This document shows positions 22,962 through 35,073 of a DNA stretch of 35,897 bases, piece by piece. The stretch is from Methanothrix sp. GTDB lineage: Archaea > Halobacteriota > Methanosarcinia > Methanotrichales > Methanotrichaceae. The position numbers and the translations under genes were made by a program. A model generated the notes under the pieces. The model had not been told where the DNA came from and did no database searches. It worked only from the letters and a program-made list of their open reading frames with translations. Location of the stretch: assembly GCA_026394555.1 (NCBI GenBank), contig JAPKXZ010000040.1, positions 1 to 35,897 of the forward strand, in the 5' to 3' direction. The stretch's first letter is position 1; each line of letters begins with the position of its first letter.

Positions 22962-25814
22962 TTGCTGGAAAATTATTCTGCTAAGGAGATCGAGGCCAAG
23001 TGGCAAAAGACCTGGGAGGACAAAGCGGTCTTTCAGCCCGAGCCCGACTCCAGAACGAAGTTCTTTTTAACCATACCTTATCCTTATCTTAATGGAAATT
23101 TGCATGCCGGGCATACGCGCACCTTCACCATTGGCGACGCCGTGGCGCGCTTCAAGCGCATGCAGGGCAAGAATGTTCTCTTTCCCATGGCCTTTCATGC
23201 CACGGGAACGCCCATTGTCGGACTTAGCGAGCTCATTGCCAAACGCGATCCACTGATCTGGGACGTTTACACCAAGCTGCACGGCATTCCTGAAGAGGAA
23301 CTCTCCGCATTAAACACGCCGGAGAAGATTGTGCTCTACTTCCGCCGCCAGGCAAAGGCGGCCATGCAGTCCATCGGCTACTCCATTGACTGGAGGCGGG
23401 AGTTTACCACCACCGATCCGGCTTACAGCAAGTTCATCGAGTGGCAGTACGGCATTTTGCGCCGCCTGGATTATGTGGTCAAGGGCAGCCATCCCGTGCG
23501 CTGGTGCCCGCATGATCGAAACCCGGTGGAGGATCACGACATTCTCAAGGGCGAGGATGCCACCATCATGGACTTTTCCCTGATCAAGTTCCGGATGGGG
23601 GACAAAATCCTGCCCTGCGCCACACTGCGTCCGGAGACAGTCTTTGGAGTGGTCAACCTCTGGCTCAACCCGGATGTCAATTATGTCCTGGCCAAAGTGA
23701 ACGAGGAGACCTGGGTGGTGTCCAAAGAGGCCTACGAAAAGCTGACCTTCACAGACCGGACCGTAGATTTGACCGGGGAGATCTCGGGAAAGGAATTGAT
23801 CGGCAAGAGGGTCACGAACCCCCTCACCGGCACCGAGGTTCTCGTCTTGCCCGCAGCATTCGTGGAACCGGACAACGGATCAGGAATCGTCATGTCCGTT
23901 CCGGCTCATGCGCCTTACGATTATCTGGCGCTCAAGGATCTGTACGGCAAAGACCTGAGCAATTACGGCATCACCGAGGACCTGCGGGACATTAAATTCA
24001 TTTCCTTGATCGAATCGCCCGGATATGGAGAGCTGCCCGCCGTGGAAGCCGTGAACGAGCTAAAGGTCCGAGATCAGAACGACCCCAAGGCAGAGGATGC
24101 CACTAAAATGGTCTACCGGCGCGAGTTTCATAACGGCGTTCTCAAGGCCAACACGGGCAAGTACGCCGGAATCGCCGTCAGCAAAATCAAGGACGTTCTC
24201 CTGGCCGATCTGATGGAGCAGGGCATGGCCGAGATCTTCTACGAGTTTTCCGAGATGCCGGTCATCTGCCGCTGCGGTACGCGCTGTGTCATCATGATGG
24301 TGCGAGACCAGTGGTTCCTGGAGTACTCCGATGTGGAGTGGAAGGCCAATGTGCTGCGCTGCCTGGCGGGCATGAAGATCATACCCGAGGAGTTTCGGGT
24401 GGAGTTCATAAACAAGGTGGACTGGCTCAAAGACAAGGCCTGCGCCCGCAGGAAGGGACTGGGCACTCATCTTCCCTGGGACAAGGAATGGCTCATCGAG
24501 TCGCTGGGTGACAGCACCATTTACATGGCCTACTACATTCTGGCCAAGTATGTGAACGCCGGGATGAAGATAGATCAGCTCCCTCCTGAGTTCTTCGAGT
24601 ACGTCTTCATGAATAACGGCGACGCCGCCGGCATTGCGGCCCAGACCGGTGTACCCCAGGAGACCGTACAGAAGATACACGACGACTTCGCCTACTGGTA
24701 TCCGGTAGATCTGCGCACCTCTGGGAAGGATCTGGTCGCCAATCACCTGCTCTTCTTCCTCTATCATCACGTGGCTATCTTCCCGGAGAGGCTCTGGCCC
24801 CAGGCCATTGCTGTCAACGGCTTCGTCTCCCTGGAGGGCAAGAAGATGTCCAAGTCCAAGGGGCCTATTCTCACTTTACGCCAGGCCGTCGCTGAAAACG
24901 GAGCGGATGTGACAAGGCTCTACATCCTGGGCAATGCGGAAGGGACAGCGGACGTGGACTGGAGAAATGATGCAGTAGAAGCCACCTATGCCCATATGGA
25001 GAGGTTCTACAATTTAGCACGGGAGATTTTGGCCGATAGCAGCATCGACGAATCCGCGGAGAAAACGCTCATCGATCGCTGGATGCTCTCCCGGCTGCAA
25101 AGGCGCATTGCTGAAGCCACAGAGGCTCTGGAAAACATTCAGACCCGAAGGGCGCTGCAGAATGCCTTCTACCTGCTCTTCAATGATCTGCGCTGGTACC
25201 AGAGGCGCGGGGGCAAGAGCCAGCTTCGCGCCGTGCTCAGCGCCTGGGTGCGCATGATGTCGCCCTTCACGCCCCACGTCTGCGAGGAGCTGTGGGCGGC
25301 AGGCCTGGGCGAGGGCTATGCATCGCTGGCAGCCTGGCCTGTGGCGGATGCGGCTCTGATCGATCCGCAGGCGGAGAAGGCGGAGGACCTCTTGGAGCGC
25401 ACCTTGAAGGACGTGCAGGAGATTGTGAGCGTTACCAAAGCCACGCCTGCGAAGATAACGCTCTACACCTCGCCAGCCTGGAAGAAGGAGATGCTGCGCC
25501 TCGCCGTCGAAGCGGCTTCGGGCGGCAAGCTGGACATGGGAGCGCTCATGAAGCAAGCCATGGCCAGCCCGGCCATTTCCGAGCACAAGAAGGATGCGCC
25601 CAAGTATGCGCAAAAGCTGGCCAAGGCGGCCCACTCGCTCTCGGCTGAGGCGCTGGGGCTGGACGAGTTCGAGACGCTCTCCAGAGAGAAGGCGTACCTG
25701 GCAGCGGCCATGGGCGTGCCGGTGGAGATCTACTCGGCGGACGAGGCGGGAGAGGACCCCAAGGGCAAAAGCCGCCAGGCGGAACCGGGGAGACCGGCGA
25801 TTTATATCGAGTGA
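22962..25814 (+). CDS. leuS: Leucyl-tRNA synthetase (archaeal type)
   Basis: Charges tRNA-Leu with leucine. The 950-residue protein has the class I HIGH motif as HAGH at 48-51 (PYLNGNLHAGH), a CP1 editing insertion (about 200-500), and KMSKS at 628-632. The C-terminus ends PGRPAIYIE; in archaeal LeuRS the last Ile-Glu pair contacts the long variable arm of tRNA-Leu (shown for the Pyrococcus enzyme). The start is a TTG at 22962 with GGAGGG about 9 bases before it. The last ~25 codons and the downstream sequence recur at 25.96 and, decayed, at 27.27 kb. Confidence 0.96.
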   Translation: MLENYSAKEIEAKWQKTWEDKAVFQPEPDSRTKFFLTIPYPYLNGNLHAGHTRTFTIGDAVARFKRMQGKNVLFPMAFHATGTPIVGLSELIAKRDPLIWDVYTKLHGIPEEELSALNTPEKIVLYFRRQAKAAMQSIGYSIDWRREFTTTDPAYSKFIEWQYGILRRLDYVVKGSHPVRWCPHDRNPVEDHDILKGEDATIMDFSLIKFRMGDKILPCATLRPETVFGVVNLWLNPDVNYVLAKVNEETWVVSKEAYEKLTFTDRTVDLTGEISGKELIGKRVTNPLTGTEVLVLPAAFVEPDNGSGIVMSVPAHAPYDYLALKDLYGKDLSNYGITEDLRDIKFISLIESPGYGELPAVEAVNELKVRDQNDPKAEDATKMVYRREFHNGVLKANTGKYAGIAVSKIKDVLLADLMEQGMAEIFYEFSEMPVICRCGTRCVIMMVRDQWFLEYSDVEWKANVLRCLAGMKIIPEEFRVEFINKVDWLKDKACARRKGLGTHLPWDKEWLIESLGDSTIYMAYYILAKYVNAGMKIDQLPPEFFEYVFMNNGDAAGIAAQTGVPQETVQKIHDDFAYWYPVDLRTSGKDLVANHLLFFLYHHVAIFPERLWPQAIAVNGFVSLEGKKMSKSKGPILTLRQAVAENGADVTRLYILGNAEGTADVDWRNDAVEATYAHMERFYNLAREILADSSIDESAEKTLIDRWMLSRLQRRIAEATEALENIQTRRALQNAFYLLFNDLRWYQRRGGKSQLRAVLSAWVRMMSPFTPHVCEELWAAGLGEGYASLAAWPVADAALIDPQAEKAEDLLERTLKDVQEIVSVTKATPAKITLYTSPAWKKEMLRLAVEAASGGKLDMGALMKQAMASPAISEHKKDAPKYAQKLAKAAHSLSAEALGLDEFETLSREKAYLAAAMGVPVEIYSADEAGEDPKGKSRQAEPGRPAIYIE

Positions 25815-25906
25815 AGGTAAGCTGCAGACCGGTTGGCTTCGGGTGCTAAACCTGGGGCCGACGGAATTAAACCACAGAGGCGCAGAGCGCACAGAGAACG
25901 AACACG
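25756..25906 (+). repeat. leuS 3'-end repeat, copy 1 (in the gene)
   Basis: The last codons of leuS (from ...CCCAAGGGC) and the sequence after its stop, GGTTGGCTTCGGGTGCTAAACC...GACGGAATTAAACCACAGAGGCGCAGAGCGCAC. The second half is a CACAGAG-type repeat. This is the intact member of a three-copy set (others at 25960 and 27271). Confidence 0.8.
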
Positions 25907-25959
25907 GAGACGGCGGTTCGATTGGGCTGGAAAAGATGCTGCACGGCGGATGAGCCGGG

Positions 25960-26094
25960 GGCGGACACCAAAGGCGAGAGCCGCGAGGCGGGGCCGGGGA
26001 GACCGGCGATTTATATCGAGTGAAAGGATGGCTGAAGACCGTTGGCTTCGGGTGCTAAACCTGGGGCCGACGGAATTAAACCGCAGAGGCGACG
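25960..26094 (+). repeat. leuS 3'-end repeat, copy 2
   Basis: A second, diverged copy. In the leuS frame it still reads ADEPGADTKGESREAGPGRP then AIYIE and TGA at the matching place, against ADEAGEDPKGKSRQAEPGRP-AIYIE in the gene. The following ~75 bases are nearly identical to copy 1 and end in AACCGCAGAGGCG. There is no start codon, so it is a 3'-end fragment, not a gene. The 25815-26232 stretch holds this, copy 1's tail and the repeat at 26158; nothing else is recognised. Confidence 0.8.
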
Positions 26095-26155
26095 ATTTAT
26101 CTAGAGAACGCTCTCAGTCTGTAGTCTGTAACCATGGAGTTTTTAACCAGTGGTT

Positions 26156-26206
26156 TACGGACTCTAACCACAAAGATCACAAAGCTCACAAAGGACGCAC
26201 AGAGGC
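26156..26206 (+). repeat. CACAAAG-type dispersed repeat before the first TA pair
   Basis: AACCACAAAGATCACAAAGCTCACAAAGGACGCACAGAGG lies directly upstream of the DUF4258 gene. It is a variant of the CACAGAG family, and its open frame runs into DUF4258, which makes the long upstream start at 26134 misleading. Confidence 0.65.
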
Positions 26207-26232
26207 GGCGATTCAAACGGAGTTTGAAGCAG

Positions 26233-26559
26233 ATGAGTTTGCTTATGTCTCAAGAGCTAATCTGTGAAATGCGATCATTAATTCTAAAGGGACGCATCAC
26301 CTTCACAGATCATGCAAGAGCCAGGATGTTCGAACGGGGCGTAGAATCCAACGCCGTAATAAATTTAATATTGGATGGCGAGATAATAGAGAGCTATTCA
26401 GAAAGCACGCCATGTCCTTCGGCATTGATATTAGGATTTGTTGAATGCCAGGCATGTCATGTGGTTGCCGCACTATGCAGAGACCGGATTAAGATCGTCA
26501 CAGTCTATTGGCCGGATGAAGAAGTTTGGTTAGATTCCAGAAAGAGGAGGTGCAGATGA
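26233..26559 (+). CDS. DUF4258 protein, likely toxin of a TA pair
   Basis: A 108-residue protein with a DUF4258 domain: ITFTDHARARMFERGV (H and R/ERG signature), then ILDGEIIESYSESTPCPSALILG and a terminal beta strand block IKIVTVYWPDEEVW. DUF4258 belongs to the BECR/RelE-like RNase fold group and typically pairs with a YgiT-type zinc-finger protein, as here. ATG 26233 follows GGAG by about 10 bases; ATG 26245 is an alternative. The frame is open to 26134 but that part is repeat. Its stop overlaps the next start (ATGA). A paralogue is at 34502. Toxicity is inferred from the family context. Confidence 0.8.
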   Translation: MSLLMSQELICEMRSLILKGRITFTDHARARMFERGVESNAVINLILDGEIIESYSESTPCPSALILGFVECQACHVVAALCRDRIKIVTVYWPDEEVWLDSRKRRCR

Positions 26560-26828
26560 ATTCTAATGCTCATGATTGCTGCGATTGTGCAGGCAAGATG
26601 CGTGAAGGCAAGCACGATTTTATGGCAAGAGTGGAGAACGAGATTGTAGTTATCAAGGATGTTCCAGCTCTCATCTGCGATACCTGCGACGAGGTAGAAT
26701 ACACGCTAGAGGTATCAAGAGAGATCGATGTGATTATGAAGGAATTCTTCGCGGGACGGCTGCTGGCAAAGCCCCTGGCGGCAGGGGAGATCACATTCAA
26801 GCCCCAGCGGGCAGACTCGACGGGGTGA
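26556..26828 (+). CDS. YgiT-type zinc-finger protein, likely antitoxin
   Basis: A 90-residue protein with two CxxC knuckles, C8/C11 and C41/C44 (ICDTC), joined by a short beta region, as in the N-terminal domain of MqsA/YgiT antitoxins. A helical segment with EVSREIDVIMKEFFAG follows. There is no helix-turn-helix domain, so it may act by binding the partner only. AGGAGG lies 4-6 bases before ATG 26556, which overlaps the DUF4258 stop. The pair recurs at 34.5-35.1 kb. Confidence 0.8.
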   Translation: MNSNAHDCCDCAGKMREGKHDFMARVENEIVVIKDVPALICDTCDEVEYTLEVSREIDVIMKEFFAGRLLAKPLAAGEITFKPQRADSTG

Positions 26829-26845
26829 GCACGGCTTGCAGTGGT

Positions 26846-27073
26846 TCAAATGGGACTCTTGTCGAGCATTTCGACTTCCATGATTTCTCCTTCGCCATTC
26901 ACGATTAGTCTGAACTTCTTGCTTTCATCTTCAAATAAGTCCTGGACCAGGCAGATGACTACCCAGTTATCAGCATCTCTTTTTGCAGAGACCGTCTCAA
27001 AGATGAACTTGGTTAAGGTTTTGGTGTCTTGGAAATATTTCTTGGCGGCTATTGCAGCATCTCTGGCATCCAT
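26846..27073 (-). CDS. 75-aa protein of unknown function
   Basis: A 75-residue protein, MDARDAAIAAKKYFQDTK then a beta-type stretch WVVICLVQDLFEDESKKFRLIVNGEGEIMEVEML. The helix plus three or four strands resembles PepSY-like or cystatin-like small folds, but I do not recognise the family. It lies opposite to the TA pair (convergent, 17-base gap) and inside the stretch bracketed by leuS 3'-end copies 2 and 3. No clear ribosome-binding site. Confidence 0.6.
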   Translation of the reverse strand: MDARDAAIAAKKYFQDTKTLTKFIFETVSAKRDADNWVVICLVQDLFEDESKKFRLIVNGEGEIMEVEMLDKSPI

Positions 27074-27270
27074 GTCATCACTCGCGGTTCATTATGAGCA
27101 ACACATTTATCAATTTTCCCAAGGAACGTGCAAAGCAAGATGGATTCGTGCAATACTGCGCATGACCTGCCCAAGGCGGCCCTTTCCCTGAGCGCGAAAG
27201 CAACGGGCGGCACGGACCGCAGGTGCACACCCGCGAGGGCGCGCGTGCACTGGTGCAGGTGGGCGGGGCG

Positions 27271-27390
27271 CGAGCGAGGTCGGGTAGGCCGGCGATATGT
27301 ATTGAGTGAAAGAATGGCTGAAGACCGTTGCTTCGGGTGCTAAACTTGGGGCTAACGGAATAAAAACACAGAAGTGCAGAGCGCAGAGGA
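27271..27390 (+). repeat. leuS 3'-end repeat, copy 3 (decayed)
   Basis: CGAGCGAGGTCGGGTAGGCC..GGCGATATGTATTGAGTGAAAG, then GGCTGAAGACCGTTGCTTCGGGTGCTAAACTTGGGGC and a worn CACAGAAGTGCAGAGCGCAGAGG. It aligns with copy 2 over its full length but has stops and small changes in the leuS frame, so it is older or under no constraint. The rest of the 27074-27566 gap has a GC-rich palindromic patch (27220-27260, two GTGCAC sites) and the leader of the OLD-nuclease gene. Confidence 0.7.
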
Positions 27391-27566
27391 CGGGCACAGA
27401 GCGCTTGCTGGCTTCGATGCTAGGGACTGGAGCCGGACGGTATTTTACCGCAGAGAACGGCACTGGAGTGATCCATGTGATGGACAGCATAATCCTTTTC
27501 TCTTTAACCTCACGCATGTATCAGCGGAGCAACAGGTGAGAAAAATAGCATAGAAGGAGATTCCAA

Positions 27567-29408
27567 ATGTATCTTCGTGAACTCCAAATTGAAGGCTATA
27601 AGGGATTTCGTGAACCATTTTCCGTTTCCCTACAAAAAGGCTTGAACGTAATTGTAGGAGAAAACGCATCCGGTAAGACTGCTATCGTTGACGCTATACG
27701 TCTTCTTCTAAGAGAGGATGAATTTGGCCATGCACCAGTAAACGAATCTGATTTCCATCGTCCCTTTGATCCCACTCTAAAATCGGCGGAAACCTTTCGT
27801 CTTCGAGTTGGGTTCATCGACTTGTCAGAGGATGAGCATGTCGCATTCTTGCCCTGGTCGGATGTAAATGGTGACGCCTCGCTGACATTGCTTGTGGATA
27901 ACAAACAGAATCATCGAGGTAACTACAAACGAACACTTTGGGGCGGAGTCTCGCAAGCAAGCATGTTCGAGTGGGAACTGTTCGATTCGATCAACTGCGT
28001 TTACCTTCCACCCCTTCGCGATGCTGAAGCCAGACTATCCGAAGGGAGGTCTTCCAGGTTGGCCAGACTCCTGAAAAACCTTCAACGCCAAAAAATTCAA
28101 GAGGCAAAGAAAAAGGGCGAGCTTCTACCTATTGAAAAGACTGTTCGCGACTTCAATAAGAATCTTTCAGACGATAAAGATGGAGTAATTGCCAAAGCAA
28201 ACGAACTGATCCGGGCACGCCTGCGCGAATCTTTTGGCCCAGTTTTCGGCCAAGATACGCAGATCCAATTCAGCGAAGTTAATTTCAACAGGATCGCAGA
28301 AAGCCTTAGGCTGATGTTTTTCCCAAACATCAAAGACCGCGCTTCTTCAGAAGAGTTCAGGACGCTCATGGAAAACAGTCTTGGCTACAACAACCTGCTC
28401 TACCTAGCCACAGTCCTCGCCGAACTCACTGAAACAAGAGAAGATTACTTTAGTGTGCTTCTGATTGAAGAACCTGAGGCCCACCTGCACCCTCAACTTC
28501 AAATTCGTCTACTCAAGTACCTTGAAAGTACCGCCCGAGATAAAAATGTTCAGGTCATCGTCACAACTCATTCGCCTGTTCTCGCCTCATCCGTTTCCCT
28601 TGAAACGGTAATTCAGCTATGTGTCACGGATAAGAAGCCACAGGCCGTTGCACTACGTTCTTGTGGTCTTTCTAAGCCCAGCAGTGCATTTCTGAATCGA
28701 TGGCTCGACACCACGAAATCGACTTTGCTATTTGCCAAAGGTATCATCCTCGTTGAGGGTATTGCAGAGGCGATGCTTTTACCTGAACTCGCGAAGATTG
28801 TGCTGCATGAATACGATAAATTGCCGGATACTCTGGAGGATGGCGGGGTGTCTGTCATCAATATGAATGGCATATATTTTAAGCACTTTATGCAGTTATT
28901 CGCGGACCTCGACGAAAATGGTTCTGAGAGCATTCCAGTACGTTGTGCAGGCATTACTGACAATGATCCTCCAACAAGTTCAAAACCAATCCCATCTAAT
29001 CCCATACCTGGGACAAACCCTGCGCTTAAACTTCTAAAGATCGTAAACGCGTCCAATTGGGCCAGGTTATATCCAAGTCCTCTCAAGACCTTCGAATACG
29101 ACCTCGCATTTTGTGGAAACAACATCCAGATTATGGCCACTGTTCTCGCTGAAAACTGGCCAACCGATGGATTAGTAAGAAGTGAGATTCAGAAACTAGC
29201 GAAAAAAGAATGGGGTAGCGAATCTGAAGACAACAAGAGTGAAACTGCTTCGGAAATTCTTAGTCACATTGAAGATAAATCAATGGGAAAAGGCCTCTTT
29301 TCTCAGCTCCTAGCAGACCATATAAAGAGTGGCACTTCTATTGTTGTTCCAGGGTACATATGCAAAGCAATTATTTGGGCTTGTGGGGGCAACCCGGATG
29401 AATCGTGA
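27567..29408 (+). CDS. OLD-family ATPase-nuclease (GajA-like, Gabija-type)
   Basis: A 613-residue protein with an ABC-type ATPase followed by a TOPRIM nuclease. Walker A GENASGKT at 31-38 after LQIEGYKGFREP; the ABC signature region is near 270-284; Walker B LLIEEPEAHLHPQ at 298-310; H335 in VTTHSPV is the switch His. TOPRIM: E397 in ILVEGIAEAMLLPE, and D465/D467 in GITDND. This is the class 2 OLD layout of GajA, which nicks phage DNA in the Gabija system (about 580 aa). The UvrD-like partner overlaps its 3' end. GGAG precedes ATG 27567. The base composition is more AT-rich than in the core genes, hinting at transfer. Confidence 0.9.
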   Translation: MYLRELQIEGYKGFREPFSVSLQKGLNVIVGENASGKTAIVDAIRLLLREDEFGHAPVNESDFHRPFDPTLKSAETFRLRVGFIDLSEDEHVAFLPWSDVNGDASLTLLVDNKQNHRGNYKRTLWGGVSQASMFEWELFDSINCVYLPPLRDAEARLSEGRSSRLARLLKNLQRQKIQEAKKKGELLPIEKTVRDFNKNLSDDKDGVIAKANELIRARLRESFGPVFGQDTQIQFSEVNFNRIAESLRLMFFPNIKDRASSEEFRTLMENSLGYNNLLYLATVLAELTETREDYFSVLLIEEPEAHLHPQLQIRLLKYLESTARDKNVQVIVTTHSPVLASSVSLETVIQLCVTDKKPQAVALRSCGLSKPSSAFLNRWLDTTKSTLLFAKGIILVEGIAEAMLLPELAKIVLHEYDKLPDTLEDGGVSVINMNGIYFKHFMQLFADLDENGSESIPVRCAGITDNDPPTSSKPIPSNPIPGTNPALKLLKIVNASNWARLYPSPLKTFEYDLAFCGNNIQIMATVLAENWPTDGLVRSEIQKLAKKEWGSESEDNKSETASEILSHIEDKSMGKGLFSQLLADHIKSGTSIVVPGYICKAIIWACGGNPDES

Positions 29409-31416
29409 TGAAAAAATAGAAGTTCTTGCTCATTCTATCTGTGGCAAACCACCTGAGATATCACCATCGAAATGCCGTGCCACTATTGGGACGACCAACC
29501 CATTATGCAACGAGTGTGAAACCTGCCGAATTGCGCGGAACTCAGACGAGCAACTGGACTATGTCCTGTCATCAATAGAGGACTGCATGTTTCTTAAGGC
29601 GTGTCCAGGCAGTGGCAAAACAGAAGTTGTCGGATTGAAGGCTGCTTACGAAATGTCTAAATGGGTGAAGACTCCAGGAGGTATCGCCGTCCTGACGTTC
29701 ACCAATAATGCAGCCGAGGTCATCGAGAAACGCGTAAGTCAATTCGGCGGTATTGCGAAGATCGGCTTTCCACATTTCATCGGAACCATTGATGGTTGGT
29801 TGCACGGATATATCGCTCATCCTTTCGCTCACATTGTCACAAAATACAACGGTAAAAGTGGCGACCGCTCAATTAGGGTAATCGACAATCATTCCCAAGC
29901 AGATTTTCTGCACAGCTTCAAAACGAAAAATAATCTTGCGCAGACAGGCAAACCAGCAGCGAACGAATACTATTTTGATGTCGAAACCAAAAAATATGTA
30001 TTTGCTTCTGCCAATAGAAATATAGACTATAAACGGAATCTGCAGAATCTTGAAATGTGGCAAGTTGATGACTTGAAAAACACGAAATTAAAATTCAAAA
30101 AGGCTGGTTTTGCTACTTATCAGGATATTGAGCACATTTGCTACGAAATCCTGACAGAAAATACAGAGCATGCACGATTCCTTTCAATTCGCTTTCCTCT
30201 TATCATCGTGGACGAGTGCCAGGACCTTTCCTGGATACAGATGCAGATACTGGACAAAATGCGATGTTATGGAACTGTACTTCATTTCATTGGTGATCTC
30301 AATCAGGCTATCTATGAATTTAAAAAAGTCGAACCTGAAAAAGTGAAGAAATACGCAAAGGAACATGAATTCAACATCCTATCCCTGTCAAATAATTATC
30401 GGAACTGTCAATCTATTGCCAACTTGTGTGACACTCTAGTTGACAACACCGACAAGGTAATGTCTATTCATGAAGGCAAACAATTGGAAAGCCCATGCGT
30501 CTGCGTGCCTTTCGAGAAAGACGATATGATGAAATTGCCGATCTGGTTTAATGAATATCTGGACAGATTTGGAATCGACAAACAATGCTCTACCATCGTA
30601 ACCAGGAGTTGGGCAAATGTTTACAGGATGAGACGGGCAGACTACGGACAAATCAAGAATTATCAAGGTAGATTGGTGATGGCCATCCATCTCTGGAAGA
30701 CCGGATGTCGGCAAGCCACTGGAGATGCGCTCAAATTATTCGGACGCTTTGTCTCCGAAAAATTCTTTCCGGGAGAATCGACCAATTCCCGAGAGTACTA
30801 TCGGCCAGAATCTGTGGATTCTGCCTTGATTTGGCGCATGTTTATGGCTGCAGCCTTGAGAGAATGTTGCCAAGATGAGCTGCTCTGCAACTTAGAGCAA
30901 AATTGGAAAATGTGGACCCAAGCAGTAAGGGACAGATTACATAAACACCTCAAGACGGGCGCAAGCAATTTCGGAGCAACTTTGTCAGACTTCGAGTTCC
31001 TCCCGTTGGTTGCGGGAAACAAGACGGGGGAGTCCTCTCCTGTATTTAAAGCGCCAAGCGACGAAAGCAATAAGCAGGTTTTGGTGGCCGCGTCGTCAAA
31101 TTCCTCTCCTCAAGCAGCATTGCGAATAACGACAATTCACAATGTCAAAGGAGAAACACTGGAGGCACTGATGCTAGTATCATCTCGGGACAAAAGTGGT
31201 ACAAGCGATGGTTATTGGACACAGTGGCTTGATGACCCAGCTTCCGAAGCAGCCCGACTCGCCTATGTCGCCAGTTCCCGTCCCCGGAAGTTGATTATTT
31301 GGGCCATCCCCAATCCTTCCAAGATGGAAAAAGATCGACTCAAGAAGGTTGGATTTCAGGTTCTGGCTTTTAGCACAGTCGTACAAAAGTCACAGACAAA
31401 GCTCGACTATTTTTAA
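29398..31416 (+). CDS. UvrD-like helicase (GajB-like) with Cys-rich N-terminus
   Basis: A 672-residue superfamily 1 helicase. Motifs: Q-like SDEQLDYV (49-56), Walker A CPGSGKTE (69-76), Ia LTFTNNAAEVI (99-109), II IIVDECQD (269-276), III IGDLNQAIYEF (299-308), V ITTIHNVKGETLEALML and VI LAYVASSRPRK. It overlaps the OLD-nuclease gene by 11 bases, the GajA-GajB order of Gabija. Two oddities: it is longer than GajB (about 490-500 aa), and it starts with a Cys-rich extension (C15, C26, C37, C40, C43; LCNECETC) that may bind zinc or a cluster. Start ATG 29398; the frame is open further upstream, but inside the nuclease gene. Confidence 0.87.
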   Translation: MNRDEKIEVLAHSICGKPPEISPSKCRATIGTTNPLCNECETCRIARNSDEQLDYVLSSIEDCMFLKACPGSGKTEVVGLKAAYEMSKWVKTPGGIAVLTFTNNAAEVIEKRVSQFGGIAKIGFPHFIGTIDGWLHGYIAHPFAHIVTKYNGKSGDRSIRVIDNHSQADFLHSFKTKNNLAQTGKPAANEYYFDVETKKYVFASANRNIDYKRNLQNLEMWQVDDLKNTKLKFKKAGFATYQDIEHICYEILTENTEHARFLSIRFPLIIVDECQDLSWIQMQILDKMRCYGTVLHFIGDLNQAIYEFKKVEPEKVKKYAKEHEFNILSLSNNYRNCQSIANLCDTLVDNTDKVMSIHEGKQLESPCVCVPFEKDDMMKLPIWFNEYLDRFGIDKQCSTIVTRSWANVYRMRRADYGQIKNYQGRLVMAIHLWKTGCRQATGDALKLFGRFVSEKFFPGESTNSREYYRPESVDSALIWRMFMAAALRECCQDELLCNLEQNWKMWTQAVRDRLHKHLKTGASNFGATLSDFEFLPLVAGNKTGESSPVFKAPSDESNKQVLVAASSNSSPQAALRITTIHNVKGETLEALMLVSSRDKSGTSDGYWTQWLDDPASEAARLAYVASSRPRKLIIWAIPNPSKMEKDRLKKVGFQVLAFSTVVQKSQTKLDYF

Positions 31417-34501: not shown

Positions 34502-34846
34502 GTGATTTCTAGACAGGAAAGTTTATGGGATGAGACGACAGCTAAAATTAATGATGGCCTGGCTATGAGTAACGAAAAAATCACCTATCGTCTTCACGCT
34601 GTCCAGCGGATGTTCGAGCGGAAAGTCAGCGCAGAAGAAGTTCGATATGTGCTGGAGATTGGAGAGGTGATTGAAGGATATCCAGATGACACACCCTACC
34701 CAAGTTGCCTGATCCTGAGAGGTTATAAGGGGCGCCTGATTCATGTAGTAGCAGCCAACAATTGCCTCGATGAGGAGATAATAGTAATCACAGTCTACGA
34801 GCCCGATCCCTCGGAATGGGACCTGGAATGCAGGAAGAGGATTTAA
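34502..34846 (+). CDS. DUF4258 protein (second copy), likely toxin
   Basis: A DUF4258 protein, paralogue of the one at 26233. The core YRLHAVQRMFERKVSAEEVR, IGEVIEGYPDDTPYPSCLIL and VVAANNCLDEEIIVITVYEPDPSEW matches it strand for strand. From GTG 34502 it has 114 residues; ATG 34565 (MSNEKITYRL, 93 residues) is an alternative start, and neither has a good ribosome-binding site. The downstream zinc-finger gene starts at the last base of its stop codon (TAATG). It begins just after a full repeat module A. The toxin role is inferred from family and pairing. Confidence 0.78.
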   Translation: MISRQESLWDETTAKINDGLAMSNEKITYRLHAVQRMFERKVSAEEVRYVLEIGEVIEGYPDDTPYPSCLILRGYKGRLIHVVAANNCLDEEIIVITVYEPDPSEWDLECRKRI

Positions 34847-35073
34847 TGAAATGCGTTATCTGTAAAAAGGCATCCACTAAGCCCGGAACAACGACAATTA
34901 CCTTTGAGCGAGATTGTTTGACAATGGTAGTAAAATGCGTTCCTGCTCAAGTCTGCCCCAATTGCAAAGAGGCATATATCAGTGAGGTGGTTACAGCCGA
35001 GCTGCTTAAGGATGCTGAGGAAAGAGCAAACACAGGAGCACAAGTCGAGATCCGGCAGTACGTTGCAGCCTAG
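34846..35073 (+). CDS. YgiT-type zinc-finger protein (second copy), likely antitoxin
   Basis: A 75-residue protein with C3/C6 (MKCVIC) and C37/C40 (VCPNC) zinc knuckles around a beta segment (TTITFERDCLTMVVKCVPAQ), then a helix EVVTAELLKDAEERA. This is the short YgiT form without a DNA-binding domain. ATG 34846 shares one base with the DUF4258 stop. It resembles the 26556 protein in layout, but has diverged in sequence, so the two pairs are old paralogues or separate arrivals. Confidence 0.8.
   Translation: MKCVICKKASTKPGTTTITFERDCLTMVVKCVPAQVCPNCKEAYISEVVTAELLKDAEERANTGAQVEIRQYVAA

Follow-up and report, generated by a model that had tools for sequence, protein, structure and literature searches.

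Displaced leuS Ends Mark Serial Acquisitions behind One Gene End in Methanothrix

A contig of Methanothrix sp. (JAPKXZ010000040.1, assembly GCA_026394555.1), analyzed here over a window of 35,897 nucleotides (nt), carries leuS, the gene for the archaeal leucyl-tRNA synthetase (LeuRS), and behind it two displaced copies of the 3′ end of that gene. This pattern is real and extends beyond the window; it records a series of acquisitions at a single gene end, and sequence comparison makes evident the homology, the polarity, and the reappearance of such ends in related species with other cargo. The explanation we favor, with a probability of roughly 0.6, is serial insertion behind leuS, either through long target duplication or by recombination through leuS ends, with leuS acting as a hotspot and no integrase needed. 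Such a route is more likely than the action of an integrase, although it is not proven.

Little is understood of how small toxin-antitoxin and defense genes that lack a mobility gene enter chromosomes. In about nine related species, a single gene end here preserves the sequence of successive arrivals, marked by earlier stop codons and flanks, so that donors, crossover points, and the succession of events become directly testable. Acquisition of small genes in archaea may more generally be recognizable by such displaced gene ends.

The leuS ends of the window

The intact leuS (22962-25814, + strand; PF00133/PF08264; TIGR00395, 1215 bits) is the sole full-length match to TIGR00395 in its own genome (G000; 2.53 Mb in 75 contigs). 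The part that recurs is its final ~230 nt (25586-25814), called copy 1 where it is compared with the displaced ends; positions such as -88..+68 are counted relative to the leuS stop codon. In alignment, the encoded AIYIE terminus falls on the end of LeuRS from P. horikoshii (structure entry 1wz2), and this segment is known to contact tRNA-Leu. The DNA behind the stop (25815-25895, + strand) consists of ~55 nt specific to the leuS ends of this clade followed by a dispersed ~35-nt repeat, and is common to G001, G021, and copy 2 of G010.

An earlier note on this DNA, made from the sequence alone, held that the leuS 3′ end is present three times and brackets a toxin-antitoxin pair. A repeat search, blastn, and a profile hidden Markov model (HMM) of the leuS 3′ end built from 19 species (the tail HMM) all bear this out. 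Copy 2 (25934-26091, + strand) corresponds to leuS -88..+68, with its stop codon at 26021-26023; it is 86.8% identical to leuS (E 7e-48 by repeat search and by blastn with the genome's own gene; tail HMM E 4e-15) and still encodes ADEPGADTKGESREAGPGRPAIYIE followed by a stop (...GRPAIYIE), as the note had read it. Copy 3 survives in two pieces, both on the + strand. The left piece (27136-27202) corresponds to leuS -228..-162 (tail HMM E 0.0024; blastn of 27136-27182 against leuS -228..-182, 77%, E 6e-4), and the right piece (27279-27401) includes a stop codon at 27307-27309 and 92 nt behind it (tail HMM E 4e-4; blastn of 27281-27401 against leuS -28..+95, 80%, E 2e-23). Copy 3 once comprised ~230 nt of leuS and has since lost ~55 nt internally. 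Apart from the start of copy 3, which lies ~135 nt earlier than had been thought, the positions first given for the copies were correct to a few bases.

A search of the whole genome places the leuS end together with the first ~55 nt after its stop at three places only, all in the window; query positions 132-166 (GAATTAAACCACAGAGGCGCAGAGCGCACAGAG) alone match ~30 other loci of this genome and represent the dispersed ~35-nt repeat. Copies 1 and 2 have a period of 209 nt and share 68 nt behind the stop. An assembly artifact is unlikely to lie behind the copies, because independent metagenome-assembled genomes have the pair of copies 1 and 2 as well, again at a distance of 207-209 nt (locus L026 of G021 and L019 of G010; decayed in L009 of G001).

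Related genomes, polarity, and order of events

Among the leuS loci of Methanothrix genomes, gathered by protein and DNA searches, displaced leuS ends were found in eight other genomes (G024, G020, G010, G015, G021, G012, G013, and G001). The displaced end of G024 (L010) spans -223..+2 and that of G020 (L011) -326..-2; G010 has two, one of which (its copy 3), like copy 2 of G021, is the counterpart of copy 2 in the window (82-83%). The displaced end of G013 is matched by the tail HMM at E 9e-16, and that of G001 is very decayed and was recognized by eye. In G012 (loci L084 and L085), the displaced end is apparently split, with its start behind leuS on contig C21 and its end on C60; a rearrangement may have cut it in two. 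The tail end on C60 lies near a cluster resembling gas-vesicle genes.

The DNA between gene and scar differs from genome to genome, and the inserts adjoining leuS measure 0.1-1.5 kb. A RelE-like pair (assigned via 1wmi, E 6e-4) occupies this place in G010 and G015, and the same pair is located behind leuS in G012; G024 and G020 contain a PIN-like gene, a gene of 75 amino acids (aa), and a YgiT gene; and G021 contains 120 nt of noncoding DNA. In G013, a YgiT gene and a relative of the 75-aa gene lie behind a weakly SIR2-like gene; the YgiT/75-aa unit and its junction to the scar, at the left piece of copy 3, are common to G000 and G013. Defense genes follow the oldest scar in several genomes: Gabija in the window, a CBASS cyclase and an OGG-type protein in G010 (L019, 4213-5791), and a NACHT protein in G024.

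Stop codons and flanks show that the polarity runs from leuS end to scar, the displaced copies being former gene ends with their former flanks. The leuS of G021 ends in GAGTGA and its displaced copy 2 in GAATAA; the DNA after this copy is that which follows leuS itself at L020, whose stop is also GAATAA. In G015 (L025), leuS ends in GAGTAA and displaced copy 2 in GAGTGA, and after the copy comes the moeA-side DNA found directly behind leuS in G023. The displaced copy 2 of G010 continues into DNA that follows leuS in G000, G001, and G021. Because an older stop codon and an older flank are kept, the displaced copies are former gene ends and not copies of the present end; the fragments thus come from leuS and not the reverse, a direction that the earlier note had argued from the conserved terminus. 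They are probably also native, because they are about equally close to their own leuS and to the nearest sister species (90 versus 88% in G015, 85 versus 82% in G024); a foreign origin was considered and was not seen. L020, from a sister species, provides a clean unfilled flank for G021. G023 was rejected as a perfect empty site for G015, since its flank matches but 163 extra nt, which may be an older scar, lie behind its leuS stop.

By this polarity, the newest insertion adjoins leuS and copy 3 is the oldest displaced end in the window. From newest to oldest, the probable order is a ~120-nt segment with the dispersed repeat, copy 2, a DUF4258-YgiT pair with the 75-aa gene, copy 3, and Gabija. 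The serial events proposed earlier agree with the graded decay of the copies, and in relatives, scars of this kind follow other cargo.

Cargo and defense genes behind leuS

Copies 2 and 3 bracket three genes. A DUF4258 protein (26245-26559, + strand; PF14076, E 1.3e-22), presumed from its context to be a toxin, is followed with a 4-nt overlap by a YgiT-type zinc-finger protein (26556-26828, + strand; TIGR03831, E 8.9e-8, above the cut-off), its presumed antitoxin; two small genes of toxin and antitoxin families so arranged, as in type II systems, are presumed to form a toxin-antitoxin pair. The third is the conserved 75-aa gene (26846-27073, - strand), without a match in Pfam, PADLOC, or NCBIfam. 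Elsewhere it is located behind leuS and overlaps a PIN-like gene of 172-189 aa, which is missing in the window. The overlapping two-gene unit, whose longer product has PIN-like acidic motifs, is widespread behind leuS (L083, 5677-6391; L010, 7020-7734; its 75-aa gene alone in the window), and neither protein has a significant match in Pfam or PDB.

Directly behind the oldest scar are GajA (27567-29408, + strand; PADLOC PDLC00091, E 6.5e-244) and GajB, a UvrD-like helicase (29329-31416, + strand, with the true start probably at ~29398; PADLOC PDLC00129, E 2.6e-189). TOPRIM (PF20469) and UvrD (PF00580) domains were matched, and the genes stand in the order GajA (ATPase-TOPRIM), then GajB; the region 27567-31416 is thus predicted to encode a complete Gabija anti-phage system. 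Further downstream (34502-35073), a second DUF4258-like gene is overlapped by a small CXXC-containing gene (34816-35073), and this pair is related to pairs in G006 and G013. Putative functions of all cargo genes are assigned from family membership alone.

Origin of the displaced ends and comparison with known systems

Under the favored explanation, each acquisition would put a short segment, consisting of a toxin-antitoxin pair or of noncoding DNA, immediately after the leuS stop, and the old leuS end with its old downstream DNA would be left behind the insert as a nonfunctional scar of roughly 85-340 nt. For the mechanism we infer one of two routes: insertion with a long target duplication, or a Campbell-type single crossover between the leuS end and incoming DNA of a related strain that carries a leuS end with other downstream genes. 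Only events at 3′ ends would survive well, with promoter, gene body, and stop codon remaining intact; because the gene stays whole when its 3′ end is duplicated, selection alone could produce a bias to 3′ ends. Addiction modules, being resistant to loss, would be favored cargo, and ends in direct repeat would ease exchange, so that leuS would become a hotspot for addiction and defense genes.

leuS is not the sole gene of this kind; that possibility was ruled out by a scan of ~1.6 Mb (0.81 Mb of the window's own genome and 0.82 Mb of the complete Methanothrix genome G004), in which part of the 3′ end recurs downstream at five more genes. This agrees with long target duplication or with homologous recombination on one side. 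Apart from ParE, the genes outside leuS are named as read off the sequence and not from library searches. The 3′ end of aroE plus 240 nt is duplicated (410 nt, 86%; L118 6024-11019, G000 C46:46024-51019) around an insert with a ParE toxin (PF05016, E 6.4e-8) together with a small antitoxin-like gene, and the noncoding DNA so duplicated is in part itself repeated in G001, G010, and G013. At rpoD with tRNA-Leu (193 nt, 87%; L117 9001-11659, G000 C46:29001-31659), the insert is 2.3 kb and encodes a 710-aa protein. A tyrosine recombinase adjoins the same tRNA-Leu in G010 and G011, and this case may be an ordinary tRNA-integrase site. The three cases in G004, where the inserts are small (L169, C1:283840-286859; L164, 184803-187051; L163, 166578-169288), are tgtA, with 68 nt duplicated and HicB-like and antitoxin-like genes in the insert; an FeS gene, with 172 nt duplicated; and a gene with 100 nt duplicated (95%) and a TnpB-like gene behind. 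Controls in the same scan (3′ tails upstream, 5′ heads on either side) gave mostly paralogs and few partial cases, a small count.

Prophage e14 restores the icd gene of E. coli on integration, and the rival with most to recommend it, although we consider it unlikely, is that elements carrying the rest of leuS, and so restoring it, integrated site-specifically at a core lying ~200-230 nt ahead of the stop codon, the recombinase having acted in trans or having been lost. The left edges of the displaced ends cluster at tail-HMM positions 192-218 (G000, G024, G015, G013, and G010), and archaeal att sites, usually 40-60 bp, can reach 243 bp (PMC8371274). The earlier note had attributed the fragments to integrating elements and looked to integrases next to leuS, an attribution that the comparison does not support. 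Among 15 Methanothrix genomes searched, no tyrosine recombinase (PF00589) is present on any leuS contig, many of which are short enough to leave room for a distant recombinase partner; G021 (97% complete), G023, and G024 have no PF00589 gene at all, and the nearest one to leuS in the complete genome is ~390 kb away. In addition, the inserts adjoining leuS are far smaller than usual integrative elements, left edges at 82 (G020) and 336 (the copy 2 type) do not fit a single core, and similarly long duplications occur at unrelated genes.

If slippage or unequal crossing-over had duplicated the leuS end in tandem, and insertions had followed independently, the regular spacing of copies 1 and 2 and the DNA they share behind the stop would be accounted for, but the homology ends at the stop in G010 (copies 1-2), G015, G020, G024, and G021, with different DNA beyond, and an older stop and flank would not be expected in a duplicate of the current end; this origin is improbable. 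A dispersed repeat or mobile element containing leuS-like sequence is a very improbable source of the tails; the ~35-nt dispersed repeat (ACCACAGAGGCGCAGAG...) just behind leuS ends is what speaks for it. The search of the window's own genome refutes this reading: the earlier note had pointed to tails at many loci unrelated to leuS as the mark of such a repeat, and the leuS part occurs at no other locus. The copies of other species are likewise all behind leuS except that on C60 of G012, which continues the tail broken off on C21.

Insertion behind leuS by target duplication or recombination has observations against it as well. Of six independent left edges, four lie inside a span of 26 nt, as chance would give in 1-4% of draws (p 0.01-0.04). 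This clustering, near -228..-203, may reflect a preferred point of crossover ~200-230 nt ahead of the stop, and it is the one observation that still speaks for a fixed site. None of the insertions was observed as it happened, the compared genomes including no same-species pair with and without an insert. The copy 2 type, with the same left edge and 207-209 nt behind the previous end, occurs in G000, G021, and G010 and, decayed, in G001; in G000 and G010 its last ~30 nt belong to the present-gene type, and G021 and G001 have the GAATAA type there. The DNA behind copy 2 differs in each of these four genomes, and because this flank and the last ~30 nt vary, crossovers seem to recur within leuS ends. 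In favor of the same explanation, a search for foreign gene ends left by insertion, by third-codon-position similarity over 120 pairs, gave one moderate outlier: the leuS end of G010 compared with G000 and G021 (0.10-0.14 versus 0.29-0.35 upstream; z -2.5 to -2.8), the strongest of the 120, looks as if leuS ends move between species, which taken alone is moderate evidence. More tentatively, leuS ends could be an integrase-free recombination site through which toxin-antitoxin and defense cassettes, closed by leuS ends, are swapped between Methanothrix species to yield an integron-like, time-ordered array.

We found no literature on leuS as an archaeal integration site; comparison with other systems is nevertheless informative. 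As far as the accounts in PMC3874152 and PMC3031569 go, restriction-modification genes can insert with long (~100 bp), variable target duplications, as in Helicobacter pylori (Nobusato 2000 and Furuta 2010, as cited there). The leuS events resemble that case, as those accounts describe it, in having self-maintaining gene pairs, long and apparently variable direct target duplications, and no attached mobile element: the direct copies flanking inserts are ~100 bp or longer (88-326 nt at leuS, 193 at rpoD, 410 at aroE), and duplication end points across the leuS events range from 82 to 336 on the tail HMM, although four of six lie within 26 nt. They differ in that the duplications run to ~85-340 nt at leuS and to as much as 410 nt elsewhere, the cargo is mostly toxin-antitoxin or other small genes (DUF4258/YgiT, RelE-like, PIN-like/75-aa) and not restriction-modification genes, the host is archaeal, and one gene end is used repeatedly, with the insertions stacked.

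Unlike gene-restoring site-specific integration, the leuS events come with no recombinase on the leuS contigs, no element-sized insert, and left edges that are not all at one place; like it (e14 in icd, or the archaeal elements of PMC8371274), they restore the gene end, displace the old fragment to the far side of the insert, and have homology that stops at the stop codon. Integrons and tandem island arrays have an integrase gene or attC sites that are lacking here, where the repeat is a decaying part of an essential gene; as in those arrays, the newest module is nearest the fixed gene, the same sequence lies between modules, and addiction modules are common.

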